Assembly (NCBI GenBank): GCA_021604105.1
Contig: BQIW01000017.1
Coordinates: 1 to 60,051, forward strand
Direction of reading: 5' to 3'
From: Nitrospirales bacterium
GTDB taxonomy: Bacteria; Nitrospirota; Nitrospiria; Nitrospirales; UBA8639
DNA length: 60,051 nucleotides
Part shown: one piece after another, positions 3,127 through 33,638 of the stretch
Layout: each line of letters opens with the position of its first letter
How positions within the stretch are numbered: position 1 is the first letter of the stretch
Translations under genes and position numbers: made by a program
The notes under the pieces: generated by a model
What the model was told of the DNA's origin: nothing
The model's database searches: none
The model's input: the letters and a program-made list of their open reading frames with translations, nothing else

Positions 3127-4179
3127 ATGAAAGAGGTCACCAGTAAAGACCGACACCGGCTTGCAGAAAAATTGAAGTTCCTTGAAGGGGATGTGATTGA
3201 AGTCATTACGACACAGTTCTTTCAACAACATCCCGAGACGGATGCCTATGGAGAATCAGGGAAGGCACACTGCGCCACCGACGCCCGTTACCACCTGACC
3301 TTTCTCAGAACGGCCATTGAATTTGGAACGGAGGAAACGTTTAGACAATATGTACGTTGGACAACCAATGTGCTTGAGGCAAGGAATATTTCCCGAAGTG
3401 TACTCCGGAAGTTTTTGAATCAAATCTCGCAGGCATTGGAGCCGCATCTTACCGATTTGGAACAAAAGGTCGTGCGGACCCATTTAATAGATGGCCCTCA
3501 TGAGTCCCCGCTACCGGAAGCTCCCACGGTTTCCCACCCCCGCTCTTCACTAACACTGCATCAGGAAGTCTTTCTTCAAGCTCTTTTGGCCGGAGATCGC
3601 CATGCGGCCAGAACGATTGCGATCGAGGCGTTTTCAATGACCGATTCTCTCTCCGATGTGTATGTAGAACTTTTTCAAGAATCGTTATATGAAATCGGCA
3701 GACTCTGGGAATCCAATCGGATTTCGGTCGCCCAAGAACACGTGGCTACTGCCATCACCCAATATGTGATGGCCAACCTCTATTCCTGCGTTAAACCTGG
3801 AAAACCTTTTCAGGGGAAAGGAATCATCACCGGTGTGGAAGGTGAACTCCATCAGGTGGGGTCCCACATGGTGGCAGACCTGCTCGAAACGAAGGGATGG
3901 GATATCCGGTTTTTAGGTGTCAATATTCCCCATCAGGCGATCCTTCAAATGATCAAGGAATTCCGACCCACCCTTGTCGGTATTTCCGCGACGATGGTTC
4001 TCAAAGTTCCGACTGTGCGAGATTTGATCACAGACATCAGAAACATGTTTCTCCCAGTGGATACCCCTCGCATCCTGGTTGGCGGATCGGCATTCCGGTC
4101 ACTACCCGATGTCTTTCGGGAAATCGGGGCGGATGGGTTTGCGCACGATTTACGCTCCTTAACGACCCTTTTGACGTGA
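3127..4179 (+). CDS. CarH-like B12-binding sensor without a DNA-binding domain
   Basis: A 350-residue protein. Residues 1-110 form a helical domain that I cannot name. Residues 140-215 match the B12-binding cap (methionine-synthase type), and 228-345 the Rossmann-like cobalamin-binding domain. The cap holds the Wx9EH signature of CarH/LitR photoreceptors: Trp194, then Glu204-His205. The cobalamin motif is Glu240-Leu-His242-Gln-Val-Gly, with His242 as predicted lower ligand of cobalt. The MerR-type DNA-binding domain of CarH is absent. In that family adenosylcobalamin caps the protein and light breaks the Co-C bond. The kinase gene begins 13 bases downstream, so the natural inference is that this sensor feeds a phosphorelay instead of binding DNA. 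No strong ribosome-binding site is seen. Alternatively it senses only cobalamin. Confidence 0.85.
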   Translation: MKEVTSKDRHRLAEKLKFLEGDVIEVITTQFFQQHPETDAYGESGKAHCATDARYHLTFLRTAIEFGTEETFRQYVRWTTNVLEARNISRSVLRKFLNQISQALEPHLTDLEQKVVRTHLIDGPHESPLPEAPTVSHPRSSLTLHQEVFLQALLAGDRHAARTIAIEAFSMTDSLSDVYVELFQESLYEIGRLWESNRISVAQEHVATAITQYVMANLYSCVKPGKPFQGKGIITGVEGELHQVGSHMVADLLETKGWDIRFLGVNIPHQAILQMIKEFRPTLVGISATMVLKVPTVRDLITDIRNMFLPVDTPRILVGGSAFRSLPDVFREIGADGFAHDLRSLTTLLT

Positions 4180-4192
4180 TGGACCCACAATA

Positions 4193-5671
4193 ATGGTGCT
4201 TGTCATATCACGATTTAAGGTCGCAAACGGGTTGGAGCAGGACGTGGCCAAAGCTTTTCAAGAACGACCCAGGTTGGTAGAGGCCGTCCCGGGATTTTTA
4301 GGGATGGAAGTGTATACCCCTCCCACAGATCCAAGTATTTTTCACCTGGTGACGCGCTGGACCGATCGTGAAACCTTTCGCGCCTGGCATAAAAGTCCCG
4401 AACATCGCCTTTCCCACGACATGCTTCCAAAGGGCCTCAAGCTGGATCCGACCGTCACTCAGATTCTTGAACTGGAACGTCTTCCTCACCGGGAAGAACA
4501 AGGTGAACTTCAAGATTTTCTAGGTGATTCAGTCTTACTGCTTGAAGCGTTTCTTAATCAAACGGATACCATCGTGTATTGTGTCATCAGTCCTGACGGA
4601 CGGATTCAGGTCTATAACGACGTACTGCTGGGAAAACTCAATTTATCCAAAACAGAATTTGATACCAAAACCATCTGGGATTTTCTCACCACAACGGACC
4701 AACAACGTCTTCAGGAAGTTCTTGAAATCGAAAACGGCAATTCCCGCGAACGGATCCAGCTCAATTTCATCGATTCGTCTCACAATCCTCACACATTCGA
4801 CTGCTTAGTCCAGAAAACCTCTTCCCGTATGATCATTTTAATCGGAGAAGAACCGGAAAAGTTCAACCAGCGGGCGTTCGTGGAATTCATGCAGATTCAA
4901 AATGAAATGACGGTTAAGATGCGGGAGGAAGTAAAAAGCGGGAATCGGTTGTCTGAAAATAATTCATATTTAAATCAGCTGGTTACCGAACGGACACAAG
5001 ATCTGGTGTTCCATCAGGAACAATTGCGGGCCATGTTGGTGGAATTGGCTCTTGTCGAACAACGTGAACGCCAACATTTGGCAAATGAATTACATGATTA
5101 TCTTGCCCAAATGCTCATCGCCTGTAGGCTCAAGCTCGCCCAAATTGCCCAAAACACCATCACTCCGGCAAATTCAAGGCTCATTCAGGAGGTTGACGGA
5201 ATAATCGATCAATCACTGACATTTACCCGAACGCTGATCTCGGATTTACACCCCGCCATATTGCACCAGCAGGGATTACTGGCCGCACTCCAATACCTCA
5301 TTGCGGATATGCGACGATTTGGTTTAGCTGTGTCAAGTCCTGAAGTCGTCCCATCGGTGAAGGTTGCAGAGAATATTAGCGTGGTGGTGTATAAGACGGT
5401 GAGAGAATTGCTGTTCAACGTCATAAAACATGCAGGGGTGGCAAACGCATCGATTTCTTGGGAATGTCCTTCGGAACAAGACCTTCTTATACGGGTGACT
5501 GATGCCGGAGTCGGGTTTAATCCGGAAGTCAAACAACACGAACAGGAACCGGGGCATCTGGGCCTCTTTTTTTATCGCGAACGCATTAAGGCCTTAAAGG
5601 GACACTTAGATATCATCTCCTCTCCTCAGAAGGGCACAACCATCACCATCACGATACCAATGTGCGCCTAG
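4193..5671 (+). CDS. Histidine kinase with N-terminal IsdG/ABM-type domain
   Basis: A 492-residue cytoplasmic kinase. Residues 1-95 match the ABM/IsdG-like alpha-beta fold. Trp65 and His75 have the spacing of the catalytic Trp and haem-ligand His of IsdG (AWHKSPEHRLSH), while the third IsdG residue, Asn, is Ser6 here. Residues about 110-220 form a PAS-like domain and 225-285 a coiled coil. The NarL/DegS-type H-box (HisKA_3) has His301 in ELHDYLAQ. The ATPase has its N-box at Asn409 (LLFNVIKHAG), a DAGVGF box and a GLFFYRERI box. It lies 13 bases after the CarH-like gene, so the two are probably co-transcribed. No membrane segment is present. The partner regulator is likely one of the NarL-type proteins at 6901 or 7588. 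The domain could bind haem or another tetrapyrrole, or may be only structural. Confidence 0.85.
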   Translation: MVLVISRFKVANGLEQDVAKAFQERPRLVEAVPGFLGMEVYTPPTDPSIFHLVTRWTDRETFRAWHKSPEHRLSHDMLPKGLKLDPTVTQILELERLPHREEQGELQDFLGDSVLLLEAFLNQTDTIVYCVISPDGRIQVYNDVLLGKLNLSKTEFDTKTIWDFLTTTDQQRLQEVLEIENGNSRERIQLNFIDSSHNPHTFDCLVQKTSSRMIILIGEEPEKFNQRAFVEFMQIQNEMTVKMREEVKSGNRLSENNSYLNQLVTERTQDLVFHQEQLRAMLVELALVEQRERQHLANELHDYLAQMLIACRLKLAQIAQNTITPANSRLIQEVDGIIDQSLTFTRTLISDLHPAILHQQGLLAALQYLIADMRRFGLAVSSPEVVPSVKVAENISVVVYKTVRELLFNVIKHAGVANASISWECPSEQDLLIRVTDAGVGFNPEVKQHEQEPGHLGLFFYRERIKALKGHLDIISSPQKGTTITITIPMCA

Positions 5672-6103: not shown

Positions 6104-6400
6104 ATGAACAGTCGACTACTTCTCAGTCTCATGATGGCCACGTGTATCCTCCCGGTGAGTTCGGCTTTGGCCTTGTTTGATGATGATAAAGCCGAATTAT
6201 TGAAAGGTACACAAATCACACTCGTTGAGGCTGTGGAAACAGCCATGAAAACGGTCAAGGGCAAGGCTGTAGATGCTGAATTAGAACAAGAAGAGGGCAA
6301 GACCGTTTTTGAAGTGAAAATAGTTGACGAAAATGAAACCACCAGAGAAGTCTATGTGGATGCTCAATCAGGAAATGTCGTAAAGATTGAAAAGGATTAG
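6104..6400 (+). CDS. Secreted PepSY-domain protein
   Basis: A 98-residue protein with a signal peptide (residues 1 to about 22, ending at ALA). The remainder is a single PepSY-type domain: an amphipathic helix (ITLVEAVETAMK), then beta strands (GKAVDAELEQEEGKTVFEV) and the usual end (REVYVDAQSGNVVKIE). PepSY domains are periplasmic and often accompany two-component systems or inhibit proteases. I placed the start at 6104 because AAAGGAG lies seven bases upstream. A longer frame from 6029 would add a non-signal sequence. It sits between a kinase and a response regulator on the same strand. Confidence 0.85.
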   Translation: MNSRLLLSLMMATCILPVSSALALFDDDKAELLKGTQITLVEAVETAMKTVKGKAVDAELEQEEGKTVFEVKIVDENETTREVYVDAQSGNVVKIEKD

Positions 6401-6900: not shown

Positions 6901-7560
6901 ATGAACACAACCAAGCGAGCACGATTATTCCTTGTTGACGATCATATTCTGGTCTTGGAAAGTTGCCAAAGATTGCTTGAGCCTCATCATGACATTGTCG
7001 GCGTGGCCCATAGCACCAGCGAGTTGAGTAGTCAAATCCGGCAAACGAAACCCGACATTCTCCTCATGGACATTACCATGCCGGACCAGAACGGATATGA
7101 CGTGGCTCGAATGTTAAAAACCATATGTCCATCGGTAAAAATTATTTTTGTTTCCATGCATTTAGAACCTACGTTCATCATGGAGGCCTTTCGTAGCGGG
7201 GGTGAAGGGTATGTCCCGAAGCAAACAGCAGGAAACGAATTATTATCAGCCATTCAGCAAGTTCAGGAAAAACAGAAGTACCTCTCTCCCCTCATTCCTG
7301 AGGAGGTACAGAATGCGGTGTTCGCCCAAATGGATGGGATGCCGGGCACCGAACTTTCGGGAAAATTGACTCCCAGGCAGCAGGAGGTGTTAAGGCTTGT
7401 GGCTCAAGGTTTTTCTGCGAAGGACATAGCCAACGTGTTGACGATATCTCAAAGCACGGTTGCGTTCCATAAAATGCAAATAGTCCAGGCCCTGGGTCTT
7501 CACTCCAAGGCCGATCTGACGAAATACGCGATCAAGTTAGGAATTTCTCCCCTTGAATAA
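6901..7560 (+). CDS. NarL/FixJ-type response regulator
   Basis: A 219-residue regulator. Residues 5-120 form a receiver with the acidic pair Asp13-Asp14, phosphoacceptor Asp57 (LLMDITMP) and conserved Lys107. Residues about 153-212 form a LuxR-type helix-turn-helix (LTPRQQEVLRLVAQGFSAKDIA). Such proteins bind DNA as phosphorylated dimers and pair with HisKA_3 kinases of the kind found at 4193. The ribosome-binding site is weak. It converges with a second NarL-type regulator, with only 27 bases between the stops. The two share the HTH style and the C-terminal AxLTKYAI-like end, so they look like paralogues. Confidence 0.9.
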   Translation: MNTTKRARLFLVDDHILVLESCQRLLEPHHDIVGVAHSTSELSSQIRQTKPDILLMDITMPDQNGYDVARMLKTICPSVKIIFVSMHLEPTFIMEAFRSGGEGYVPKQTAGNELLSAIQQVQEKQKYLSPLIPEEVQNAVFAQMDGMPGTELSGKLTPRQQEVLRLVAQGFSAKDIANVLTISQSTVAFHKMQIVQALGLHSKADLTKYAIKLGISPLE

Positions 7561-7587: not shown

Positions 7588-8241
7588 TTAAATGGAAATA
7601 ATTCCATTTGCGATGGCATATTTCGTAAGTTCTGAGGCCGTTTTAAGTCCCAAGACTTGCATAACCCGCGTCTTGTGAAATTCCACGGTCTTGACGGCAA
7701 GATTTAAAATGACGGCAATTTCTTTATTGGATTTTCCTTCAGCAACCAATTGAAGGATTTCCACCTGTCGTTGGGTCAATGCCTGAGAATCCGCCTGAGG
7801 AGTTTTTTTCACATTTGAAGACGGGTTCAGTGCTTGACTGACGAGGCCTTGTGCAATTGATGGAGAGACATAGGTGCGTCCCTGATACACTTCATTAATG
7901 GCAAACACTAATTCTGCCGTGGCAGATTGTTTGAGAATATACCCCACTCCACCGGCCTTGAAGGCTTCATGGACAAAATGTTCCTCGGCATGCATCGTGA
8001 GAAAGATTAATTTTGTTTGAGGTTCGCATTTTTTTATTTGTCGGGCAGCTTCCAACCCATTCAATAGCGGCAATGAAATATCAATGATCGCAATATCGGG
8101 TGTATGTTTCTTGACGGCTTGAACTAATGCATGACCGTCAACAACGGTCCCAACGAGGGTGAAATCCGTTTCCAGTAGTTTGGTCAGTCCCTCGCTAACC
8201 AGGACGTGATCCTCAGCTAAGAGTACCCGAGCTTTGCTCAT
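7588..8241 (-). CDS. NarL/FixJ-type response regulator
   Basis: A 217-residue regulator. The receiver has Asp10-Asp11, phosphoacceptor Asp54 (AIIDISLP) and Lys104. A Gln/Asn/Lys-rich linker near residues 138-152 leads to a LuxR-type HTH (LTQRQVEILQLVAEGKSNKEIA). It is a probable paralogue of the regulator at 6901, on the opposite strand. Its own promoter must lie right of 8241. There is no kinase beside it on the same strand, so its partner is probably one of the HisKA_3 kinases elsewhere in the window. Confidence 0.9.
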   Translation of the reverse strand: MSKARVLLAEDHVLVSEGLTKLLETDFTLVGTVVDGHALVQAVKKHTPDIAIIDISLPLLNGLEAARQIKKCEPQTKLIFLTMHAEEHFVHEAFKAGGVGYILKQSATAELVFAINEVYQGRTYVSPSIAQGLVSQALNPSSNVKKTPQADSQALTQRQVEILQLVAEGKSNKEIAVILNLAVKTVEFHKTRVMQVLGLKTASELTKYAIANGIISI

Positions 8242-8650: not shown

Positions 8651-9265
8651 TTACCCCTCGAGGCGTTTGGTTACAACATCCCAATTCACATGGGAAAGGA
8701 AACATTCAATATATTCGCCCCGTTCTGACGGTGGAAAATCCAGCAAATATGCATGTTCCCACACATCCATCACTAATACAGGACGAAATCCGGCTATATT
8801 GCCAAATTCATGAAGGCTGATCCAATGGTTGGAGAGCCTGCCGTTTTCCGGATTGAGATTGCAGACAGCCCAGCCGACCCCGCGCATTTTCCCCACGCTT
8901 GAGAAGTCGGTTTTCCAGATCTCAAAACTTCCAAAACTGCCTTCAAGAGACCTCAGCAGGGAATCCTGACCCTGGGGTGATTTGGACGATTGTGAGGTCA
9001 TATTTCCAAAATATAATTCATGGAGAACCATGCCATTATATTCGAAACCCAGCCGTCGGGTCAGTTCAGAATACGCCGGCATTTCCTCCTGATCCACCTG
9101 TCCATCAATCAAAAACTCCCCGATTTGCCTGGTGAGGGAATTGGTAGCCTTCACATAGCCTTCATACAGCTTCAAATGCATCTCCAACGTCTTATCTGAT
9201 ATACCGTTCAATCCCTTGAGCTTGAAATCTTTAACCGGATAATCTTGGCTGGTCTTCATACGCAT
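8651..9265 (-). CDS. Iron/manganese superoxide dismutase family protein
   Basis: A 204-residue protein of the Fe/Mn superoxide dismutase family, converting superoxide to oxygen and hydrogen peroxide. The four expected metal ligands are visible: His30 (EMHLKLYEGYV), His82 (VLHELYFGNM) and the Asp167/His171 pair (MDVWEHAYLLD). The N-terminal helix has HxKLYEGYV instead of the usual HxxKHHxxYV, a variant I associate with some environmental homologues. No export signal is seen, so it is probably cytoplasmic. I placed the start at 9265, eight bases after GGGGGA. The frame continues to 9292. A site of the recurrent motif lies about 96 bases upstream on the same strand. Confidence 0.88.
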   Translation of the reverse strand: MRMKTSQDYPVKDFKLKGLNGISDKTLEMHLKLYEGYVKATNSLTRQIGEFLIDGQVDQEEMPAYSELTRRLGFEYNGMVLHELYFGNMTSQSSKSPQGQDSLLRSLEGSFGSFEIWKTDFSSVGKMRGVGWAVCNLNPENGRLSNHWISLHEFGNIAGFRPVLVMDVWEHAYLLDFPPSERGEYIECFLSHVNWDVVTKRLEG

Positions 9266-9360
9266 AGATTCCCCCACCATAATACCAAACAATGTTGCAC
9301 CAGGTTTTGACTCGCATCATCTTGTTGAGGCTCAATATAAGAGGGAATGAAAAACGGCGT

Positions 9361-14296: not shown

Positions 14297-14675
14297 GGGT
14301 TGTGTTCTCCTTTTGGTTGAATTCATTTGGTTATCGGTCTATCGGGTTCAAGAGCCTCTCTTCCCTGATTGTCTTAGGTATACAAAATAGTCTGGGCGGG
14401 AAGACCTGAGAAAAACCCTGGCTTGAGTGAGCAACCACCCTGGATGACTCGGTGGGCGAACATCTTCGGGCCTTCACGCTTAGACAAGATGGATTCGTTG
14501 AAGCTATACTTTTCTCAGTTTCGTTTTTCAAAGCATGTCCCAAACGTCGTCTGCGTAATCGCATCCGAGAGCGCAGCATCATTCAAGATTAGACTGGGAG
14601 TCCACGGTCTTCCTATCCATACAGAAGCGGGAAGGCGCATGCTGTTCTTCAGTTGAGAAAGAAAAATGTAAAGGT
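14297..14675. other. Intergenic stretch of about 380 bases
   Basis: No gene is visible. It holds the promoter motif at 14405-14421 for the minus strand and must contain the promoter of the kinase operon on the plus strand, for which I see no clear consensus. Confidence 0.45.
14405..14421 (-). promoter_or_regulatory. Recurrent motif site upstream of the small gene at 14111
   Basis: The minus strand reads CCAGGGTTTTTCTCAGG. It matches the left half fully and the right half as YCAGG instead of CYAGT. Distance to the start codon is 109 bases. Confidence 0.6.
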
Positions 14676-16139
14676 ATGATGACGATTCAAGAACGACTCA
14701 AATCCGGTTCTCACGCAAAAAATTTGGATATGATCCTGCTGGTCGTCATCAGCACGCTCATTGGCGGAATTTTTGTGTTGGACCTTTTCATCAAAACAGG
14801 AGTCGCGATTGGCATGTTATATGTGAGCGCCATTATGCTGACGCCATATTTACCCCATGCAAAATCCTCATTCATCGTTGCCGGGGTCTGCACGGTCTTC
14901 GCCATCATTGGAATAATCTATTCACCCGGCGTGAACGTGGTGTATTCGGGCAGCACCATTGCGGGCAATGCCGTAACCAATCGTCTCTTATCGCTTTTTA
15001 TGATTTGGGCCACCGCCCTGCTCACCTATCAATATCGTCAGGGGATGGAGGTCAGGCTCCGGTTAGCCTCTATCGTGGAATCCACCCATGACGCCATTAT
15101 CGGACAGACTCTCAAAGGGCAGGTTACCAGTTGGAACAACGGCGCCGAACAGATGTTCGGATATTCGTCACAGGAGAGCATCGGTCAGTTCATGACATTT
15201 CTTTTTCCACCAGACCGGATGGCCGAAGAAAAGGATATTCTGGAAAAACTCCAGAGTGGGAAGCAGATTCAAAATTTCGAAACGGTTCGACGCCGGAAGG
15301 ACGGACAGGACATACCGGTGTCGGTGACCATTTCTCCCATTATCGATCGATGGGGAAACCCAATTGGCGCCTCAAAAATTGCCAGGAATATTTCCCGGCA
15401 AAAAGAGATGGAAAATCTCCTGGCTGTACAAAATCTGACCTTAGCCCATCATGCAGCCTCGTTGAAGCAATCAAACGAAGATCTCGAACAATTTGCCTAT
15501 ATTGCCTCCCATGATCTCCAAGAACCCCTCCGCACGATTCATGGCTTTACGCAGTTGCTGGCGGAACGCTATAAGGACCAATTAGACGACCGGGGTAAAG
15601 AATTTATCGGATTCGTGACCGATGGAGCGAATCGCATGCAAACCCTTATTCAAGACCTCCTGAAATATTCAAGAATTCAGGCCCGGGAACTGAACCCCGT
15701 TCCGGTCAACGCCGAGGAGGTGCTCAATGAAATCCTCGAACATCTCCGCATGGCCCTTGAGGACCAACAGGCTTCGATCACACATGACCCTCTGCCGATC
15801 ATCCTGACCGATCGGTCGCATTTTCAACACCTCCTCCAAAATCTGATTACCAATGCCATGAAATTCCATGGCCCCAACCGGCCACACATCCATCTCACGG
15901 CCAAGGAAGGAGGCAACGAATGGATCTTTTCCGTCCAGGATAACGGGATCGGCGTCGGCCCGGAATATTTCGAGCGGATCTTTCTTCCGTTTAAAAGATT
16001 GCACACGAGGGAAGAATACGTGGGAACCGGCATCGGTCTGGCCATATGTAAAAAAATCGTGGAACGCCGTGGAGGCCGTATCTGGGTCGAATCCGAATCG
16101 GGAGCAGGAGCCAAATTTTCTTTTACCTTACCTAAATAA
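14676..16139 (+). CDS. Membrane PAS histidine kinase
   Basis: A 487-residue kinase. Residues about 18-118 hold four membrane helices, 128-240 a PAS domain (NNGAEQMFGYSSQE), and 245-275 a coiled linker. The H-box YIASHDLQEPLRTIHGF has phosphoacceptor His279 and is of the type found in phytochrome-related kinases. The ATPase has the NLITNAMKFH N-box, DNGIGV and GTGIGLAI boxes. The next gene, 14 bases downstream, is an Rcp1-like receiver, the usual partner of this kinase class. A short AAAGG site precedes the ATG. The signal sensed is not apparent, since the N-terminus has no photoreceptor domain. Confidence 0.92.
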   Translation: MMTIQERLKSGSHAKNLDMILLVVISTLIGGIFVLDLFIKTGVAIGMLYVSAIMLTPYLPHAKSSFIVAGVCTVFAIIGIIYSPGVNVVYSGSTIAGNAVTNRLLSLFMIWATALLTYQYRQGMEVRLRLASIVESTHDAIIGQTLKGQVTSWNNGAEQMFGYSSQESIGQFMTFLFPPDRMAEEKDILEKLQSGKQIQNFETVRRRKDGQDIPVSVTISPIIDRWGNPIGASKIARNISRQKEMENLLAVQNLTLAHHAASLKQSNEDLEQFAYIASHDLQEPLRTIHGFTQLLAERYKDQLDDRGKEFIGFVTDGANRMQTLIQDLLKYSRIQARELNPVPVNAEEVLNEILEHLRMALEDQQASITHDPLPIILTDRSHFQHLLQNLITNAMKFHGPNRPHIHLTAKEGGNEWIFSVQDNGIGVGPEYFERIFLPFKRLHTREEYVGTGIGLAICKKIVERRGGRIWVESESGAGAKFSFTLPK

Positions 16140-16153
16140 ACCGGAGATGTTTC

Positions 16154-16597
16154 ATGCAGAATCCTGTTGAAATTTTATTAATCGAAGACAATCCGGCTGA
16201 TATCCGTCTCACCCAGGAAGCCTTTCGGGAAGCTCGTCTCCGGAATACCCTTCACGTGGTTCAAGACGGGGTCAACGCCATGGCCTTCATCCGGCAGACA
16301 GCACCTTATCAACAGTCTCCCCGACCGGACCTGATTCTGTTAGACTTAAATCTTCCCAAAAAGGACGGGAGAGAGATTTTGAAGGAAATCAAATCCGATC
16401 CGCTCACTCGCACCATTCCCGTGGTGGTGTTGACCACCTCAGATGACGAAGCCGATGTCTTGCGTAGTTACGAACTTCATGCCAATGCGTATTTGGTGAA
16501 ACCCATTGATATTTTACGATTCATCAAAATGATTCACTCACTCGAAAATTTCTGGCTTGCCGTGGTGAAACTCCCTCCAAAAGTGTCGGAGTCATGA
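16154..16597 (+). CDS. Rcp1-like single-domain response regulator
   Basis: A 147-residue receiver with no output domain. It has Glu11-Asp12, phosphoacceptor Asp64 (LILLDLNLPKKDG), a VLTTS switch Thr and Lys116. The LNLPKKDGxEVL-like segment and length resemble Rcp1 partners of cyanobacterial phytochrome kinases. It lies between the membrane kinase and the hybrid kinase and overlaps the latter by four bases (ATGA), which indicates translational coupling. It probably relays phosphate between the two kinases. Confidence 0.92.
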   Translation: MQNPVEILLIEDNPADIRLTQEAFREARLRNTLHVVQDGVNAMAFIRQTAPYQQSPRPDLILLDLNLPKKDGREILKEIKSDPLTRTIPVVVLTTSDDEADVLRSYELHANAYLVKPIDILRFIKMIHSLENFWLAVVKLPPKVSES

Positions 16598-18576
16598 GCG
16601 ATCTTCATTCCCCTACGCATTCCATCCTGTTGGTGGAGGATAATCCTGCCGACGCAGAATTAGTGCGAGAGCGGCTGAGAGATGTATCCGGCATGTCCTC
16701 CTTTCATATTACCCGCGCCTCGACTCTGAAAGAGGCTCTGACCAATCTTCAGAGCACACCGTATGACGTCATCCTCCTTGATTTGAATCTGCCGGAAACC
16801 AATGGCCTTGAAACATTGGAACGAATCCGGGCAGCGAGCTCAACCATTCCCCTTGTCGTGTTAACGGTGAATGAGGATGAACCGTTGGCGCTCGAGGCCA
16901 TCAAACTGGGGGCACAGGATTATATCCCTAAATCTTCGATGAATGCCGTGTTACTTTCCCGAATATTGCACTATGCCATTGAACGGGAAAAAATCGACCG
17001 AATTCGACGGGACAGCGAAAGAAAGTACCGGTTATTTGTTGATGGAGCCACCGGGCTGGCTTTTATCCTGCTTGACCTGGATGGGAACATTACTCATTGG
17101 AATTCCGGAGCGGAGAGACTTCTGGGCTACACGGAAGACGCGGCATTACATAAACATTTTTCCCTGCTCTTTACCCCTGAAGATCAACGTAATGGTCGTC
17201 CGGAAACCGAATTGCGGAGGGCGGAAACCTTAGAAAAAGGGGATGATGACAATTGGCTGGTTCGAGCTGACGGCTCACGATTTTGGGCCAGCGGGGCGGT
17301 GACGGCCATACGCGACCCCGGGGACAACCTTATCGGATTTGCCAAGGTGGTTCGAGACAAAAGCGCCCAAAAAGAAACCAGTGACAAATTAGCCGAATTG
17401 AATCGAACCTTGGAAGAGCGCGTGATCCAACGAACGCTTGAACTCACTCGCAACCAGGAGCGCCTACGGGCCATGGCCTCCGACCTCACACTGACCGAAC
17501 AACGCGAACGGCGCCGGTTGGCTTCGGATCTTCATGATTATCTGGCACAACTCCTTGTGGTCTGCCGACTCAAATTAAATCAAGGTCAATCACTCACCGA
17601 TACGGAAAGCCGTCAACACGTGCTTCAAGAGGCGGATAGTATCCTGGACCAATCCTTAACGTATACACGCACATTGGTGACCCAACTCAGTCCAACCTGT
17701 CTCTATGAATTCGGACTCCATGCCGCACTCGTCTGGTTGGGATCTGAAATGGGGAAACAGGGCCTCACCGTCAAACTCACCGGTATAGAGCAGCCTCCGA
17801 AGCTGCCGGAGGATCAGGCCGTTCTCGTGTTTCAATCGGTCCGGGAACTGTTGTTTAACGTTCTCAAACACTCGGGCGTGCAGGAAGCCACCGTCACCCT
17901 TTCCCTTCAAGCCGACAACCTTATGCATATTGAGGTGGAAGATTTCGGCCGAGGTTTTCCGGAGGGGTATGAAGACAGAAATGAAGAATCCTCGAGCAAA
18001 TTTGGGCTCTTCAGTATCCGTGAACGATTGGAAGCCATCGGGGGAGAGATGGTTCTCACCTCCGCTCTCCAAAAAGGGACACACGTGCTCCTTCGCATTC
18101 CCCTACCAACAACCGCGGAGGAAATCGCTCCGACTCTAAAAAACCGGACTTTGGTCCATTCGCACATACAAAAACCAATTGCCGGTTCCCGCTCTGAACG
18201 GATTCGGATCCTGGTCGCAGATGATCATAAAATGGTCCGGGAGGGATTTTGCCATATCCTGAATTCTCAATTAAATTTTGAAGTCGTGGGAGAGGCAGAA
18301 GACGGAGAGCATGCGATGACCCTCTGTGAATCCCTCCGCCCTGACGTCGTGGTAATGGATCTCCATATGCCAAAAATGGACGGACTGGAGGCCATCAAAA
18401 GAATAAAACCACTCCTTTCCGATACGGTATTTATCGGATTATCCGTTTACGATACGCCGGAGGTGGCCCGATGGTTCCAAGAGGCAGGAGCGGCGGCATT
18501 TGTCACAAAGGGCGGTCCGGCTGAAAACTTAGTCACGATCGTCAGAAAATTTTGTCAACAACAATCATCCGCCTAG
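16594..18576 (+). CDS. Hybrid kinase: receiver-PAS-HisKA_3-ATPase-receiver
   Basis: A 660-residue soluble protein. An N-terminal receiver has Asp63 (ILLDLNLPETNG) at residues about 10-125. A PAS domain follows at about 140-260 and a coiled coil at 263-300. The NarL-family H-box has His314 in SDLHDYLAQ, and the ATPase has N-box Asn422 and a KFGLFSIRERL box. The C-terminal receiver (about 536-655) has Asp589 and ends without an HTH. The arrangement suggests input from the upstream receiver protein and output by internal transfer. Its H-box and catalytic segment closely resemble those at 4193, 22132 and 29089, so these four are paralogues and crosstalk is possible. Confidence 0.92.
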   Translation: MSDLHSPTHSILLVEDNPADAELVRERLRDVSGMSSFHITRASTLKEALTNLQSTPYDVILLDLNLPETNGLETLERIRAASSTIPLVVLTVNEDEPLALEAIKLGAQDYIPKSSMNAVLLSRILHYAIEREKIDRIRRDSERKYRLFVDGATGLAFILLDLDGNITHWNSGAERLLGYTEDAALHKHFSLLFTPEDQRNGRPETELRRAETLEKGDDDNWLVRADGSRFWASGAVTAIRDPGDNLIGFAKVVRDKSAQKETSDKLAELNRTLEERVIQRTLELTRNQERLRAMASDLTLTEQRERRRLASDLHDYLAQLLVVCRLKLNQGQSLTDTESRQHVLQEADSILDQSLTYTRTLVTQLSPTCLYEFGLHAALVWLGSEMGKQGLTVKLTGIEQPPKLPEDQAVLVFQSVRELLFNVLKHSGVQEATVTLSLQADNLMHIEVEDFGRGFPEGYEDRNEESSSKFGLFSIRERLEAIGGEMVLTSALQKGTHVLLRIPLPTTAEEIAPTLKNRTLVHSHIQKPIAGSRSERIRILVADDHKMVREGFCHILNSQLNFEVVGEAEDGEHAMTLCESLRPDVVVMDLHMPKMDGLEAIKRIKPLLSDTVFIGLSVYDTPEVARWFQEAGAAAFVTKGGPAENLVTIVRKFCQQQSSA

Positions 18577-18585
18577 ATCTCTTCC

Positions 18586-19308
18586 TTATTTCCTGTTGAA
18601 ATTCTGCACTACCAATCCCGTGGCGTTTTCGGCGCTCGGAAGGGACGTTCCCGTCAGCATTTGATAGGCCTGCAACACGGTATTGACAGGTGAAATCTGC
18701 ATAAGAAATGGCGTCTGCCACTCGCTGTCTTCAGGGAACCGGTCGTCAGGAATAATCACTCTTGAGATATGTTCCGCATAAGCGGCCTGGATTTTTAACG
18801 GAATTCCGCCCACCGCCCCGATATGACCATCACGAGTCACTTTGCCGGTCATGACCCGGTTCAGGAGAATGGAGTTATCGTTAGCCATAGCCAGAGTCAC
18901 GACACTCACCATTGCGGTCAAACTATCTCCATAGATGGTCACACCGGGACTCGGAAATTTGAGAAAGACATTCCAGGTCTTTGGATCCAGACCAGCCATA
19001 CGAGCCGCGGAGACGATTCCGGATTGAATAGCCACTTGAGTAAACGGTGAAAACTTTCCCGGTCCGCTTGAAAATGTCACATTCAGGGCTTCCTGACCTT
19101 CCTGTTCCCGGAATGCAATATCCAGTTCAGCCACAATGCCTATGGGTTCACTATTCAGGTCAAGAGTCGTTCCCAAAAAGGTCACGGATTGCTTCTGCCA
19201 GTGCGTCTGTTCGGCTAGAGCCGGCTGTAGGAAGGAGAAGGTCCATCCCCCGGAAATACACCATGCCACCATGCTGAAGATACAGGCCGTTTTTTTTAAC
19301 TGATACAT
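18586..19308 (-). CDS. Exported Lon-type (S16) peptidase domain protein
   Basis: A 240-residue protein with a signal peptide (1 to about 32). The rest matches the proteolytic domain of Lon (family S16): catalytic Ser129 in IYGDSLTAMV and catalytic Lys172 in GHIGAVGGIPLKIQAAY, followed by the IIP segment. The AAA+ ATPase and N-terminal domains of Lon are absent, so it cannot unfold substrates and would act in the periplasm on flexible proteins. The gene lies three bases after the stop of the secreted protein at 19312, which suggests that the two work together. GGAG precedes the start. Confidence 0.85.
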   Translation of the reverse strand: MYQLKKTACIFSMVAWCISGGWTFSFLQPALAEQTHWQKQSVTFLGTTLDLNSEPIGIVAELDIAFREQEGQEALNVTFSSGPGKFSPFTQVAIQSGIVSAARMAGLDPKTWNVFLKFPSPGVTIYGDSLTAMVSVVTLAMANDNSILLNRVMTGKVTRDGHIGAVGGIPLKIQAAYAEHISRVIIPDDRFPEDSEWQTPFLMQISPVNTVLQAYQMLTGTSLPSAENATGLVVQNFNRK

Positions 19309-19311
19309 TGA

Positions 19312-19692
19312 CTACTTCTCCGAAACCGGCAAATACGGGATGATATAGGCCCCATTTCCTTCCACACGCTGGTCGACAAACTGATCGAAGACGCCATCCC
19401 GATTGTCATCCAGCCAATAGAACAAGGGCCATTCAACAGTTTCAACGACCGTATTCCAGAATTTGTTATTTTCATAAAAAATTATTTGGCGGGCCGTTTT
19501 ATAATCGACGACGCCGTCTCCCTCTAAGGAATATTCCCGGATATACAATCCCGTGATGATATTCACATCTTCATGGACGAGTTTCGCCTCACCGGGCTCC
19601 TTCGGCATCTCCGCAGTGAGGCCATGTCCCTCCATGACGAAACTCAAGAGAATCCCGCACATCCAGAACAACTTGTATTTTTTGCCATTCAT
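19312..19692 (-). CDS. Secreted hypothetical protein next to S16 peptidase
   Basis: A 126-residue protein with a signal peptide (1 to about 27). The mature part includes ITGLYIREYSLEGDGVVDY and FYWLDDNRDGVFDQFVDQRVEG, acidic turns of EF-hand-like or thrombospondin-type calcium loops (DDNRDGVFD, EGDGVVDY). Calcium binding is therefore plausible but unproven. It precedes the exported S16 peptidase by three bases in the same orientation. AAGGAA precedes the ATG. I cannot name a family. Confidence 0.7.
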   Translation of the reverse strand: MNGKKYKLFWMCGILLSFVMEGHGLTAEMPKEPGEAKLVHEDVNIITGLYIREYSLEGDGVVDYKTARQIIFYENNKFWNTVVETVEWPLFYWLDDNRDGVFDQFVDQRVEGNGAYIIPYLPVSEK

Positions 19693-19747
19693 CGGATTAG
19701 TTCCTTATGGTGTCATGATTGTGGTCGAATCCACGGAGCAGGCATGA

Positions 19748-20059
19748 TCATGGTTCCCCGGTCATCACCAATCCATTTTCACGATGACGCGGCTGAGTCA
19801 AGGTGTTCACAGCAGGAATCCCGCCCTGATGTCCTCGCAACCGGTTCAGCAAAATAAAAGGATCGATGACGTCACCACATTGAATACAGTGCTTGGCTTG
19901 AAACTTAAAATCCTCATAATCGGAAAAAATATCCATATACGTTTCCTCGATCATGGTTCCTCCACATCGCGAACAGTGGGATTGGTGCATTTGATTCATC
20001 AATTGAGGAAAAACATCGGGGTGCTCGGTTCTCATGGCATCCAGTGTAAATGTTTGCAT
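19748..20059 (-). CDS. Zinc-ribbon small protein
   Basis: A 103-residue soluble protein with two Cys pairs, CSRCGG and CIQCGDVID, separated by about 33 residues, that probably bind one zinc ion. The pattern CxRCGGxM...E...CxxCG...D..I..NR is typical of small hypothetical proteins in this kind of genome, and I know of no function. AAGGAGG lies directly upstream of the ATG at 20059, which fixes the start. The longer frame up to 20329 has no site. The recurrent motif lies about 72 bases upstream on the same strand. Confidence 0.75.
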   Translation of the reverse strand: MQTFTLDAMRTEHPDVFPQLMNQMHQSHCSRCGGTMIEETYMDIFSDYEDFKFQAKHCIQCGDVIDPFILLNRLRGHQGGIPAVNTLTQPRHRENGLVMTGEP

Positions 20060-20591
20060 AACGCCTCCTTCGTTCTTGGGTGAGAATTTATGTTGATAGT
20101 CCGACTGTAGTTTCTCATTCGAATTGCGAGTACTACCCAAAACCCTTGGTCTCAACGGGAAGATCCCTTGAAAATTGTCGAATGGGAAATGCGGGTTCTG
20201 AATAAGGGAATATAGGAGGGCATCAAGACAATGGAATGACTTCAGGGCCATGAATAAGAAGACATGCCAGGGCCGCGCTTCAAGATTGACGGCATTGAAC
20301 GCCATTCTCTCGCTCCGGCATGAGACCAATCGACTGAGACTTATGAATCATGACGACCTCGAGTTGAACACGCCACAGCCGTGAACGTCGCTCTGGCAGA
20401 TGGTGAACAAGTCGGCCGGCGTTCCCTGCCTTCGCCGAAGCGGCTTCACGTCAATGCGCTCGATGGTTTCAACCCGCAAACGCGTCAATCTTGGAATCCG
20501 AAAAGCTTTCAATTGGATTGTGAGGTTTCTAACGCCCGGTGAGGGACTGATCCGAAACCATCAGAAGAATTCCCTTGAATGAAGGCATCTC
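20060..20591. other. Intergenic stretch of about 530 bases
   Basis: No gene is visible apart from chance open frames. The only element I can point to is the motif at 20131-20150. Confidence 0.45.
20131..20150 (-). promoter_or_regulatory. Recurrent motif site upstream of the zinc-ribbon gene
   Basis: The minus strand reads ACCAAGGGTTTTGGGTAGTA: full left half, right half GTAGT instead of CYAGT. Distance to the start codon is 72 bases. Confidence 0.6.
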
Positions 20592-21662
20592 TTATTCAGA
20601 TTTGTTAACCGGCCATGAGAGCTCAAACGGGAGAGAGGATTTCTGATTCAACATTTCCCGAAATTGTTGCAATTGAGGCAGAAGGGATTTCAGCTCTTGT
20701 TGATAGACGCTCAGAGTGTGACGAAGACCCGTGTGTTCGGCTCTGGCAATACATTTCTGCAGGAGAGCCACACGCTCCTCCATGAGCCGAAAGGCTGTCC
20801 ATAATGCCTGGTCAAGGGTATTCGATTTTCCCGCCAACAAAGACTGCTCGGTAAATCCATGTCCGACGTGGCAGTGATAGCGGGTCAAGGAGCCCTGGGT
20901 CTGTTGCCAAAGGGTGCCTCCGCATTCGGGGCAACTGAGGCCGGCCACCTGCCCCTTGCGTCGCCGGGAGGGAAGATGACTCATATAGGCATCGACAGAT
21001 TCGTTTTCCTCAATCAAATCTTCAGGAGGAGGGAATTCCCGGCCGAGCCGGGACTTGACCTGATGAATCAGTTGACTGGCGAGATCTGCCACCGGCAAAC
21101 AAAAATCAACGTGCATATGACCCAGCACATTATTCGGCAGATCTGGAAACAGAGCCTCAGCAAGATCCTGAACCATAATCATTCCCCTGCACCGCTGGAT
21201 GGCCAGAAGCCCGGCAACACCATCGTCCAGATATCCTGATAAAATGATACCCACCACACGCACGCCATAGGACACCGCCGCCGAACGAAATAACGTGTCA
21301 ATTGAAGGCCGCCAAAGATTTTCATTCGGTCCCTTAGAAAGCACCATCACATCCTTATCAATCAGCAGATGAAAGTCCGGCGGAGCAATATACATTCTCC
21401 CATGGGAAATAAACTCTCCATTCTTGGCAAATGTGGCCGGCACAGATCCGGCCGCAGATAAGATCGAATCAAGCGTGGAAGCCGAATAGGATCCGAGATG
21501 GAGCACGACAAATATTGAAGCTTGCAATTCCTGGGGGAGAGAGGAGACCAGCTTTTTAAGCGCGGTGATTCCTCCCGCCGATGCGCCAATGACAATAATG
21601 TCGGGATGTGATGACTGGATCATAGGAATACGTTGGGAGGCGTTGCCAATGAGAGTGAGCAT
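20592..21662 (-). CDS. CheB-type methylesterase with C-terminal zinc domain
   Basis: A 356-residue protein. Residues about 18-205 form a CheB esterase domain with the catalytic triad Ser28 (GASAGG), His55 (VVLHLG) and Asp147 (GYLDDGVAG). The usual N-terminal receiver is absent. Residues about 243-275 carry CPECGG and YHCHVGHGF, a probable zinc site, followed by a helical tail. Receiver-less CheB proteins with this tail are common beside large sensory kinases, as here, where a CheB-CheR kinase lies just downstream. A role in adaptation of a signalling complex is likely, but no chemoreceptor, CheA or CheW is present. AGGGGTGA precedes the start. Confidence 0.88.
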   Translation of the reverse strand: MLTLIGNASQRIPMIQSSHPDIIVIGASAGGITALKKLVSSLPQELQASIFVVLHLGSYSASTLDSILSAAGSVPATFAKNGEFISHGRMYIAPPDFHLLIDKDVMVLSKGPNENLWRPSIDTLFRSAAVSYGVRVVGIILSGYLDDGVAGLLAIQRCRGMIMVQDLAEALFPDLPNNVLGHMHVDFCLPVADLASQLIHQVKSRLGREFPPPEDLIEENESVDAYMSHLPSRRRKGQVAGLSCPECGGTLWQQTQGSLTRYHCHVGHGFTEQSLLAGKSNTLDQALWTAFRLMEERVALLQKCIARAEHTGLRHTLSVYQQELKSLLPQLQQFREMLNQKSSLPFELSWPVNKSE

Positions 21663-21833
21663 TCACCCCTGTGAGACCATCTACCCCCCATTTTACCATC
21701 GGTGAATCAAAACGCGAACGCAAACAACATGGACAAAATTCCGTAAGCCTCAAATAAAAAATCAAGTTGAACTTCGATGCCCAAGTGAATAGCAGTCTGC
21801 CACGGAAAAGATTATCCTGAGAAGGAAAGGAAC

Positions 21834-22022
21834 TGTGCCCGGCCCAACCGGGCCGTGCCTTGGCGAGATGCTTCGCCTTCAGCTCAGCATGACACCGATA
21901 GTGTGGGTCGATCAGTATCCAATCCCTCGGCCTTGTCATCCTGAGTCCGACGAAGGATCTGTGCCCAGCTCAACCGGGCCGTGGCTTCGCGAGATGCTTC
22001 GCTTTCAGCTCAGCATGACAAC
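21834..22022. repeat. Two tandem copies of a REP-like intergenic repeat
   Basis: Two 63-base units (21834-21895 and 21960-22022) of the form TGTGCCC(G/A)..CAACCGGGCCGTG..T..CGAGATGCTTCGC.TTCAGCTCAGCATGACA lie 126 bases apart. TCATCCTGAGTCCGACGAAG stands between them. Segments of this style (GAGATGCTTCGC, CAGCATGAC) are familiar as short dispersed repeats in many bacterial genomes. They have inverted-repeat potential (CCGGCCCAACCGGGCC). Confidence 0.7.
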
Positions 22023-22131
22023 CGGAGAACTGGGAGACGGAGGATGACCTTGAAAGATGAGGATGGTGGTGGGAGATGACCTCTCCTTACTTCGTCCTTC
22101 GCCCGGAGACTCTACGCCTTAAAAGAGGCGT

Positions 22132-25100
22132 TCAGGAGACATCATGGTTTTTTTGACTGGATCGAATGACTTCGGCGAAGGAACCGAAGGAATCCCCTTT
22201 TGACACATATTTGTCTCCTCCAGCCTCCGCAAAGCGCCTGGTCACGATCTGATCCCCATGCATGGACAACCCGATGATATAGATTGACGGGTGGCTGGCT
22301 TTGATGAGACGGGTGGCTTCTATTCCGTTCATCACCGGCATATTGATATCCATCACAACCACATCCGGGTAGAGTGTCTGAACAAGCTCAATCGCCTGTT
22401 CGCCGTTTTCGGCTTCTCCGACTACCTGAATATCGGGACAGGCATTCAACATGGTGCCCAATCCTTCACGGAAAATGGGGTGGTCATCCGCAAGAACGAC
22501 CCGAATGCTCGCCTCCTTTTTCCTTGGAATCTGAGCCGGCATCTCCATGGGAGGAGAGGGGGCCTGAATGGGCTCAAAGTCTGCGTCTTGAGGGGAAACG
22601 GGCACCTTGATCCGCACTCGTGTACCCTCTCCCCTCGTCGAAAAAATTTCACATTCTCCTCCAAGGCTTTCCACGCGTTCCTGAACGTTCAACAGGCCGA
22701 ATTTTTCACACTGGAAAAGCGTGTAACCAGCCAAAGACTGATCAAAACCAGATCCGGTATCCGACACCTCTATTTCAATGAAACCCGAGGAGCCTTGACT
22801 GATCACAACGGAGGCTTCCTGGGTTTGGGCATGTTTCACCACATTCAGCAATAATTCCCTGATGACCTGATACAGGATAATTGAGACCGATTCGGAAAGG
22901 TTCATTTCCTGATTCTCAAGATGAGAGGTCACCGTGACGTGCAATTCATACCGGACCATTTTTTCGGCCAACCATCGGATGGCTGCCATAAATCCGAATT
23001 CATATAAGATGGGCGGACTGATTTGAGGAATGAGGTCCCGCGTGTAATCCAGGGCATCATCCAGAGATTCTTCCAATTCCTTGACGAGAGGTCCCTGCTG
23101 ATAGGAAAGATCGGCTTGTTGCAATTGACCGATCTTTATCTTCGCGACCACCAGCAACTGACCCAAATAATCATGCAATTCAGTGGCAATGCGACGCCGT
23201 TCACGATGTTCGGTGAGAATGAGGTCTAATGACAATTGACGACATCGTTGTTGATGCTGAAGGAGTTCCTGCGTCCGTTCTTCCACCCGACATTCCAGCG
23301 TTTTGGTCAGAGATTGCAATTGGGTTTCAATATGATTCCGGTGTATGGCAGAAGCCAGAATATCGGCCATGGTCTGTAGGAACTCCACCTCCTTCTCCTG
23401 GAATTCCCTCCTTGATGACGTATGCACACCAAGGACTCCATGCGGCTTGCCTTCCTGATCCCGGATAATGCAACTCATGCCACTGACCACATGATGATCA
23501 AACAATAAGGAGGGACCGGAAAACCTGTTTTCCCGGGAGAGATCATTGACAATCACCGGCTTATCGCTTAGGAGCGTATAACCCGCCTGGGAATTGAGAT
23601 CGGCACTCACGACGGCATGTCCGACCAGGCCTTCTTTCCACCCTATTCCGGCGCGAAGACGGAGAGAGTGTTCGCCGGGCAATAATTCCAGGACCTTGGC
23701 CATTTCGATCGACAAGGTCCGACTCAGATGTCTCACACATTCGTCCATAACTCTGAGAATCTCTCTTTCCTGAAGCGCCAACTGTGCAAACTCCGCCATC
23801 ACCTTCAGTTGTTGAGAGAAATGAAACACTTGATCTTCCACCTTGCGAAGCGGGGTGATGTCCACAAAGCTCAGCACGACTCCCTGGATCTGCCCGTCAC
23901 TGGTGTGGTAGGGCGTTATGCGTGAAAAGTAGGTCTGAGGATTCTGGGAAAACCGGCGGCTGTGTTCTTTGGGTTTTGCGGTGCGCAACACGTCCTGAAT
24001 ATCCGCCAAAAGGGTGGGATCTTCACAAAATGCGGACAATTGGGTAATCGGCCGCCCGAGATCGGTACTCAAAAACTGAAATATTTTTTGCGCAGCCGGA
24101 GTATATTTCTGAATACATAAATTGGCACTGAGAAATAAGGTGGCAATGTCCGTCGTCCGAAAAAGGTTTTCCATGTCAGTATTGGCGTGATCCAGTTCCT
24201 CCACCTTCCCCGACAGTTGAGCATTGACCGTTTCCAATTCTTCATTAATCGACTGCAATTCCTCGGTGGATGTTTGCAGTTCTTCATTGGCGGATTGCAG
24301 CTCCTCGTTCACCGACATCAATTCCTGATTGGAGGATTTCAATTCCTGATTGGAGAATTCCAGGTCCTCCATGGCGGTCTGCAAATGCTCTCTGGTGGTC
24401 TGAATTTCCTGCTCCAATTCCTGAATTGTCTGTCGCTCGCCCGTCGAGGATTTCTTCGGGACTTTGGAAGATTTTCGGGATATGCCGTTCTCACGGAACA
24501 CCACCATCAGCAGATCGGACGATTGCTTGACATGAAAAAGAGGACGAACAATGATATCCACAGTTTGAATGCCATGATTCACAGGCATTTGAACATTGGA
24601 TTGGACGACTTCCTGCCCGGTTTTCACGGCCTTGGAAATGCCGGATCGCAATGGTATACGCAAAACCGGTTTCACCATTTTGATCAGATTCACGTTGATG
24701 GAACCGGAGGGTAGCTGCAGATAGGTCCCGGTCCGTCCGGAGACATATTGCACATGGCACTCTTTGTCGATGACCACTGCGGGGGGGCCATACTCCTCTC
24801 TGACCAATTGCTCGAAGGTCTGGGTGAAGTGGTCGTGCATTTTGGGAAAAAGAGCAGTTTTTGGCGCGGGGATGCTCCCGCGCGGTCCCCGTATCGGAAA
24901 GTTGGGAAACGTAGGGCGCAAGATCTCTTTTGGTTGAAACACCCGAAAGCGTTTATTCACGGAGCGAAAATACCGGGATTGGTCTTCCCCATGCTCCGAC
25001 GCGCCGAGAAACAGATAGCCCTCCGGGTTGAGGGAGTAATGAAACACGGAAAACATCTGATTCTGAAGATTGGGTTCCATGTAGATCAACAGGTTCCGGC

Positions 25101-26505: not shown

Positions 26506-26792
26506 TAGAAGGTGTTGTCTTTCATCTCATGGAAATGGCACTTGGATTTTACTCTACCCCACGGTTTCAATGAAAGCGTTTGGGCCGGACCTCATCCTCT
26601 CTCATGCTGAAACTCGGAGGTCGGAAATACACGGGGTCAACATCACCATTGTGTCGATATTCAATCCTGCGTCTCCTAACACCGGCACGGGTGATGATGA
26701 ATCAGGGAGGCATTCCGCGACATACGTTCCCAACCGGACCCGTATGATCAATTGATCTCCCAGGCAATCCATCCTGAATCTGGATGGTCTTT

Positions 26793-27227
26793 CTACACCG
26801 ATGATCGTCCGGCAGAAGCAACGCGTCCTTCCGGAGGACTCATCCTGTGTGTCGCGTTCACACCCGATCCTGACAGTCGGTCATTCCCTGTGAGAACATG
26901 TCCTAATTCGCTGGTAGTGGTAATTTCGGTGGCCATATCAAAGATTCCGGCTTCTTTTAACAATGGGCGGACGGCGGGTTGCACATTGAAAAGATAGACA
27001 CCCTTCGCTTGCTCCCTGGCTTTAAACACAATCTGGAAGATGGTCCAGGTCCCAATAGAATTGACGAACGACAAGGATCCTAAATCTAAAATGAGTAAGG
27101 AAATCGGTGAGGGGACGATGCGATCCAATAATAAATCTGTTCGACTCAAATTAGGGGTATTCACACTGAGATCCACGGTGAGCGTCAGGACCACATGTTG
27201 GCCGGGAGTGCTAATGGTGCATTTCAT
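26793..27227 (-). CDS. STAS-domain (anti-sigma-factor antagonist-like) protein
   Basis: A 144-residue protein with a STAS domain over residues 5-105. The strand-loop LLILDLGSLSFVNSIGTWTI holds the Ser of the family's phosphorylation site, and LFNVQPAVRPLLKEAGIFD the usual C-terminal helix. It is probably a partner-switch protein whose phosphorylation releases it from an anti-sigma kinase. The last 30 residues (from about 114) are unstructured and Gly/Ser/Arg-rich. The ATG at 27227 has AAGGAG nine bases upstream, which decides against the GTG at 27230. No anti-sigma kinase is adjacent. Confidence 0.78.
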   Translation of the reverse strand: MKCTISTPGQHVVLTLTVDLSVNTPNLSRTDLLLDRIVPSPISLLILDLGSLSFVNSIGTWTIFQIVFKAREQAKGVYLFNVQPAVRPLLKEAGIFDMATEITTTSELGHVLTGNDRLSGSGVNATHRMSPPEGRVASAGRSSV

Positions 27228-27457
27228 CACAATGATCTCCTTTTAGCTGATACACACAATAAAGTATGAAAAATTTTTGTCATTTTACGCGTCCCGGTTT
27301 TTCGCGCCACTCTATGTAACCCTTGAGGTGGATTACGTAAACTGCCGTGGAGAGAAATTCATGTCTTCTCTTTGGCGTTCAACACGTGAAACGATGTGGG
27401 ATGTGGGTCAGAGTAAAATGGGATTTGTCATGTTCCTGACACACCCTGCTTTCACTG

Positions 27458-28954: not shown

Positions 28955-29088
28955 ATGCGTGGCCTCCTTAACTGGACCCTGTGTAGGAACAGTCTTGAAT
29001 ACCATGGGGGATAAACCCCGAAGATGTCAGTTGACAAATTTGGCGGGTATGAAGAAAAAATATCCGGGATTCAGATCGACGTTGGGAC

Positions 29089-33273: not shown

Positions 33274-33638
33274 GGACACAGTCCTTTCACCTGAATGGGC
33301 CTGGTAGGCCGACACTGAAGAACGTCGAAACCCTATCTAAACCGCACATTCGGCAGGCTCAACCCTATCACATCTCCTCCACCATTTCAGTTGACAAATC
33401 AGAGGTTTCCGTCCTCTTTGAGGAGACAGTTCTCCGATTTTCACGGTTCCTCCTTTGAATCTTGTCAGGTGATTCATGACATCCCTAGGGTCGGTACCGG
33501 AAGAATCAAGGGATTTTAACAGTACAGAACCGGGGGTCACCTCGTTAAATTTGTACAACGTTACAGCCTGATGGACTATGAGGAATGTTTAATTCATTTT
33601 CATTCATTTTTATTTCCCCCAAGTAAAGGAGAACGACC
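33274..33638. other. Divergent intergenic stretch with a weak motif relative
   Basis: No gene is seen. At 33506-33525 the plus strand reads TCAAGGGATTTTAACAGTAC. This resembles the recurrent motif but with one inserted base, and it points toward the gene at 33639 (114 bases away). Confidence 0.4.

Follow-up and report, generated by a model that had tools for sequence, protein, structure and literature searches.

Two adjacent genes in a Nitrospirales genome encode a putative light sensor and a soluble histidine kinase, and we propose, with a probability of about 0.62, that this photocobilin-type sensor acts in trans on its dedicated two-component kinase. Judged by sequence comparison and structural modelling, the sensor is a photocobilin-type protein with a globin at its N-terminus; the proposed relay additionally draws on analogy with characterized photocobilins. 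The window, meaning the whole stretch of 60,051 nucleotides that was analysed, is a contig from a 4.9-Mb genome. Within it, an open reading frame for 350 aa (3127–4179, forward strand) is followed on the same strand by one for 492 aa (4193–5671), and the two are separated by 13 bases (4180–4192), as an earlier note on this DNA had stated. A scan for sigma-70 promoters returned no match above chance. The locus is laid out as follows:

3127–4179, + strand: predicted photocobilin-type sensor, 350 aa, N-terminal photoglobin and C-terminal CarH-like B12 domain
3139–3504, + strand: predicted bilin-type globin domain, residues 5–126, with C48-A-T-D51 and W78 (Foldseek, VIA, SasPcob alignment)
3562–3792, + strand: B12 helical-bundle cap, residues 146–222, with W194 and E204-H205 (PF02607; invariant columns)
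3811–4161, + strand: B12 Rossmann domain, residues 229–345, with GELH242 and G264xxxP268 (PF02310; alignment)
4193–5671, + strand: soluble sensor histidine kinase, 492 aa, ABM-PAS-coiled coil-HisKA_3-HATPase_c
4193–4480, + strand: ABM domain like those of heme-degrading IsdG/MhuD/HmoB, with S6-W65-H75 at the NWH triad positions
4544–4852, + strand: PAS-like domain of the kinase, a weak match (PF13426, E 0.0024, below cut-off)
5066–5257, + strand: HisKA_3 dimerisation/phosphoacceptor domain, H301 by motif (PF07730, E 2.4e-9; conserved ELHD/DLHD)
5387–5662, + strand: HATPase_c catalytic domain (PF02518, E 1.3e-11)
6104–6400, + strand: small PepSY-domain protein between kinase and regulator
6901–7560, + strand: NarL/FixJ-type response regulator with D57 and a GerE HTH, likely the cognate regulator (only in kinase-holding genomes)
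7588–8241, − strand: second NarL-type response regulator, convergent, syntenic in relatives, a possible second output
8651–9292, − strand: Mn/Fe superoxide dismutase gene beside the regulator pair

The C-terminal part of the sensor contains B12-binding_2 (residues 147–218, E 8e-16) and B12-binding (231–336, E 4e-16) by Pfam. The earlier note had read from this protein a Wx9EH signature, the B12-ligand His242 and the lack of a MerR domain, and all three readings were borne out: G191xxW194-x9-E204H205 and G239xxH242 are present, the latter aligning with the SasPcob cobalt ligand His108, and Pfam finds no MerR or HTH domain in the sensor, whose N-terminus is instead predicted to be a globin. Together with G264xxxP268, the sensor carries the complete GxxW / EH / GxxH / GxxxP light-sensing signature, which was set with experimentally tested proteins (PMC11796333). 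Furthermore, E240-L-H242 agrees with the photocobilin E/DxH motif and W194-x9-E204H205 with W-x9/10-EH. Profile alignment equates W194 with Trp61 of SasPcob and E204-H205 with its Glu71-His72 (author numbering equals chain index plus 5, checked on Trp61 and His108). This alignment places Trp194 and His205 in the adenosyl pocket, and not outside the adenosyl-binding bundle, the outcome that the earlier note had named as speaking against its claim. An alignment of 15 sequences spanning Nitrospirota, Azospirillaceae and Fusobacteriota has W194, E204, H205, H242, G191, G264 and P268 invariant, but not G239; because the invariance of W194, E204, H205 and H242 reaches into other phyla, the motif in the sensor is not due to chance.

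These features do not make the sensor a CarH. The solved proteins closest to it are SasPcob (E 4.5e-28), CtMerR and AbDPcob, compared to E 3e-8 for CarH, and with a family profile the photocobilin match reaches 7e-49, whereas the score with the NCBIfam CarH model is 57.5 bits, far below its cut-off of 400. More specifically, the CarH residue His132, which directly follows the pocket Trp and is needed for the bis-His light state (PMC11796333), corresponds to Glu195. We therefore rejected the identity as a CarH photosensor minus its DNA-binding domain: the AdoCbl pocket signature is there, but the MerR domain and the His after the Trp are not, and the N-terminus is a globin. What the sensor does combine is a CarH-like B12 domain, a linked photoglobin domain, and the bilin-contact Asp and Trp, all features of photocobilins.

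The globin (residues 1–126) is a second sensor domain that had previously been passed over. Searched alone with phmmer, residues 1–138 weakly match phycocyanin and allophycocyanin alpha chains (YGESGKAHCATDARYHL over YGDSNQAKCARDIGYYL) and, also weakly, the globin of SasPcob. Against the family profile, the SasPcob globin gives a gap-free match (domain E 8e-4) and allophycocyanin an E of 5e-4; the gap-free alignment equates D51 with the biliverdin-contact residue Asp270 of SasPcob and W78 with Trp296. While confidence in the full-length sensor model is modest (pLDDT 64, low TM across the whole chain), the globin modelled alone reaches pLDDT 76, and its best 50 Foldseek matches are all phycobiliproteins or the bilin-binding smURFP (TMq 0.74–0.82). 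VIA alignment gives a Z of about 15 and an rmsd of 2.2 over 122 residues, a high Z being easier to obtain for helical folds. Because the Foldseek matches are all of one kind and the sequence comparisons point the same way, the N-terminal domain is most likely a photoglobin, that is a phycobiliprotein-like globin.

In the kinase, HisKA_3 (PF07730) and HATPase_c (PF02518) exceed the Pfam cut-offs; an ABM domain stands at the N-terminus, and PAS matches weakly. No membrane segment is evident in its sequence, and the H-box His (H301), the N-box and the G-boxes are conserved in full orthologs. The nearest relatives of its ABM domain are TT1380 and the heme degraders MhuD, HmoB and IsdG; NCBIfam models for heme degradation give weak matches to this domain. 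Members of the IsdG family share a defining Asn-Trp-His triad (N41, W100 and H110 in LFO1; PMC5557675). The kinase has S6, W65 and H75 at the same spacing (59 and 10 residues), with Ser6 in place of the Asn; this Ser is fixed in 6/6 kinase orthologs, whereas the stand-alone ABM relatives of the phylum keep the Asn. We consider catalysis by the ABM domain to be probably impaired, and binding of heme or a tetrapyrrole to be possible. Within the phylum sample, matches to both ABM and PAS come from the kinase orthologs only, the others covering the ABM part alone in short ORFs, and the ABM-bearing kinase is restricted to the genus of the window organism. Close relatives of the ABM domain in genomes G000, G015 and G019 amount to the kinase itself, the only match at E 1e-6.

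Sensor and kinase are strictly linked. Within a set of 60 relatives, the sensor is limited to six genomes, that of the window and those of five genus-mates (in one of them as two pieces on two contigs); the kinase occurs in these six and in G004, where the contig ends inside the kinase gene, and the regulator at 6901 is confined, at the cut-off applied, to these seven genomes. The order sensor-kinase-regulator is conserved among the genus-mates. Because the PepSY gene is missing between kinase and regulator in three genomes, we regard sensor, kinase and regulator as the conserved core. All three are under purifying selection, with dN/dS values of 0.13–0.21 for sensor and kinase and 0.05–0.07 for the regulator. 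HisKA_3 kinases usually partner NarL-type regulators.

Several further observations concern the surroundings. In G015 and G003, the PepSY gene (window 6104–6400) precedes the sensor gene. The regulators at 6901 and 7588 are about 42% identical, and the superoxide dismutase gene (8651–9292), syntenic in four relatives, is a possible target of the relay. A dense signalling region (14559–33336) contains a PAS-HisKA kinase, a HisKA_3 hybrid kinase with two receivers, CheB, a 1463-aa CheB-CheR-PAS-GAF-HisKA_3-receiver protein and a 1414-aa double-kinase hybrid.

Outside the genus, full-length sensor relatives at about 30–35% identity are found on plasmids of Azospirillum, Skermanella and Ilyobacter. 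The Azospirillum sensor is directly followed by a HisKA kinase. In a distant Nitrospirota genome (G197; L066, 1207–6429), consecutive genes encode a heme oxygenase, the sensor, a HisKA kinase, a hybrid HisKA_2 kinase and a receiver; this run is a strong candidate for a full light-signalling cluster based on bilin and B12. In Ilyobacter and in Nitrospirota G124, the sensor is followed by a PAS-GGDEF or GGDEF protein; in G258 (L067, 6166–9299), it is followed by a stand-alone PAS-coiled-coil protein and then by a protein of 427 aa whose N-terminal domain is a heme oxygenase. The earlier note had called the coupling to a kinase unusual, and had held that a lack of such pairs elsewhere would count against it. 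Pairs do occur, in Azospirillum and G197, so that the coupling is uncommon but not unique. Elsewhere (L070, 2365–4894; L071, 6198–7957), B12-only family proteins of about 218 aa without a globin stand directly before PAS-HisKA kinases. In Azospirillum thermophilum, the annotation splits the kinase beside the sensor (L074, 8019–9220) into two genes that overlap in different reading frames, which points to a frameshift, either in the gene itself or in its record.

We hypothesize the following mechanism. The B12 domain would bind AdoCbl, the product of the CobO/BtuR enzyme encoded in the genome, and hold it base-off/His-on via H242, and the sensor would dimerise in the dark around W194 and E204-H205. 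Green light, or red light via a bilin bound by the globin near C48, D51 and W78, would break the Co-C bond; loss of adenosine would then rearrange the helical bundle and alter the oligomeric state. Because the bis-His ligand of CarH is absent (Glu195), a CarH-type light state is not expected, and the light state would rather be aquo/hydroxo-cobalamin, as in SasPcob. The rearranged sensor would alter its contact with the PAS/coiled-coil region of the kinase, a contact suggested by adjacency and co-occurrence, and the kinase would either phosphorylate the presumed target, the 6901 regulator, or be shut off. Standalone photocobilins change enzyme activity in trans (PMC10979010), and since the light states of SasPcob and AbDPcob alter enzyme activity, in trans and as a fusion, we propose the same for the sensor-kinase contact. 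A plausible output would be photo-oxidative protection in a light-sensitive organism. The two-component relay of the earlier note is thereby retained, but with a different sensor family: it best accounts for a sensor that has an AdoCbl pocket, lacks a DNA-binding domain and is strictly linked to a kinase.

The partner histidine kinases and cyclases of photocobilins share a PAS domain and an LNNEL-type linker. A docking module common to all photocobilin partners nevertheless found no support: its profile ranks the kinase first in the window, but genome-wide it retrieves other PAS proteins and not the kinase.

Of the alternatives, the strongest, although still rather unlikely, is that the globin is a structural relic and the sensor a green-light switch working by B12 alone, which is largely true of AbDPcob. 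It would fit with the lack of a canonical heme oxygenase (PF01126) in 6/6 sensor-bearing genomes of the genus, the window genome included and two of them being single contigs; the same search finds heme oxygenase in G197 and G258. It would also fit with a globin that evolves faster than the B12 domain (dN/dS 0.22–0.34 vs 0.09–0.15). Against a relic, C48 and D51 are retained in all genus orthologs read, W78 is invariant across the 15-sequence alignment, and AbDPcob has lost the bilin-contact Asp that the sensor here keeps as D51. A bilin-type globin with no heme oxygenase beside it makes the bilin question directly testable. The ABM domain of the kinase might bind heme and make or hand over an open-chain tetrapyrrole for the sensor globin, replacing heme oxygenase; we hold this to be very improbable, but if true, one protein pair would integrate light, B12 and heme.

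That the sensor monitors the supply of cobalamin and not light, with AdoCbl binding setting the kinase state to report B12 status, we consider unlikely. The marine Nitrospira marina, another organism than that of the window, requires exogenous B12 (PMC8115632), the window genome encodes the AdoCbl-making enzyme CobO/BtuR, and AbDPcob enzyme activity is altered by AdoCbl binding alone; yet the complete adenosyl-pocket signature of photoactive domains is retained, the antenna-like globin would be without a role, and no B12 transport genes were found beside the sensor-kinase cassette among the genes checked. Less likely again is a kinase governed by its own ABM domain, which would sense heme, redox state or oxygen, with the B12 protein regulating something else and adjacency reflecting co-expression. 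Such a kinase would suit the resemblance of the ABM domain to heme-degrading enzymes, its retained heme-ligand His, and a protein that is soluble and complete by itself, but it would leave aside the strict co-occurrence and conserved order of the two genes, and the recurrence of sensor-kinase pairs elsewhere with ABM-free kinases. We therefore prefer the photocobilin-type sensor acting in trans on its kinase.

The demonstrated targets of B12 photoreceptors are so far DNA (CarH) and a cyclase (AbDPcob), and none of the searchable papers shows one driving a histidine kinase. The cassette is a compact candidate for this role; it could bring green/red B12 photosensing to two-component optogenetics, and it offers a way to study genetically how Nitrospirales respond to light. 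Light inhibition is documented in Nitrospira inopinata (PMC9797979).

Compared to known systems, the sensor is nearest to SasPcob and AbDPcob (PMC10979010), which likewise join a CarH-type AdoCbl pocket to a phycobiliprotein-like globin and act on a partner enzyme by protein contact, as proposed here. The equivalents of SasPcob Asp270 and Trp296 are present, and the globin-first order already occurs among predicted photocobilin relatives (PMC10979010). The differences are Cys48 at the phycobiliprotein bilin-attachment position, where SasPcob has Thr, and the partner, here a histidine kinase in trans instead of a diguanylate cyclase or a SpoIIE/STAS set. The photoglobin/BBAG-2 globins (PMC10151467 and its reference 60) are likewise associated with B12 proteins and carry a bilin motif with Cys and Asp, given as CXQD or RGMC, compared to CATD here; the sensor also differs in having no heme oxygenase or bilin reductase nearby. 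Similar gene pairs may already be listed in that reference 60, the photoglobin paper in which globin-B12 proteins in signalling were first described. CarH/LitR shares Wx9EH, GxxH and the AdoCbl pocket residues by alignment, but has a MerR domain and His132 where the sensor has no MerR domain and Glu195. IsdG, MhuD and HmoB share with the kinase the ABM fold, by sequence, and the Trp/His spacing (W65, H75), but in the kinase the catalytic Asn is Ser6 and the domain is fused to a kinase. The G197 cluster and the Azospirillum pair also have the sensor directly before a histidine kinase; those kinases are of HisKA type without ABM, in contrast to HisKA_3 with ABM here, and the G197 cluster includes a heme oxygenase, which the set here does not. 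Taken together, the sensor type is already known, and its pairing with a kinase bearing a heme-enzyme-like domain is new.
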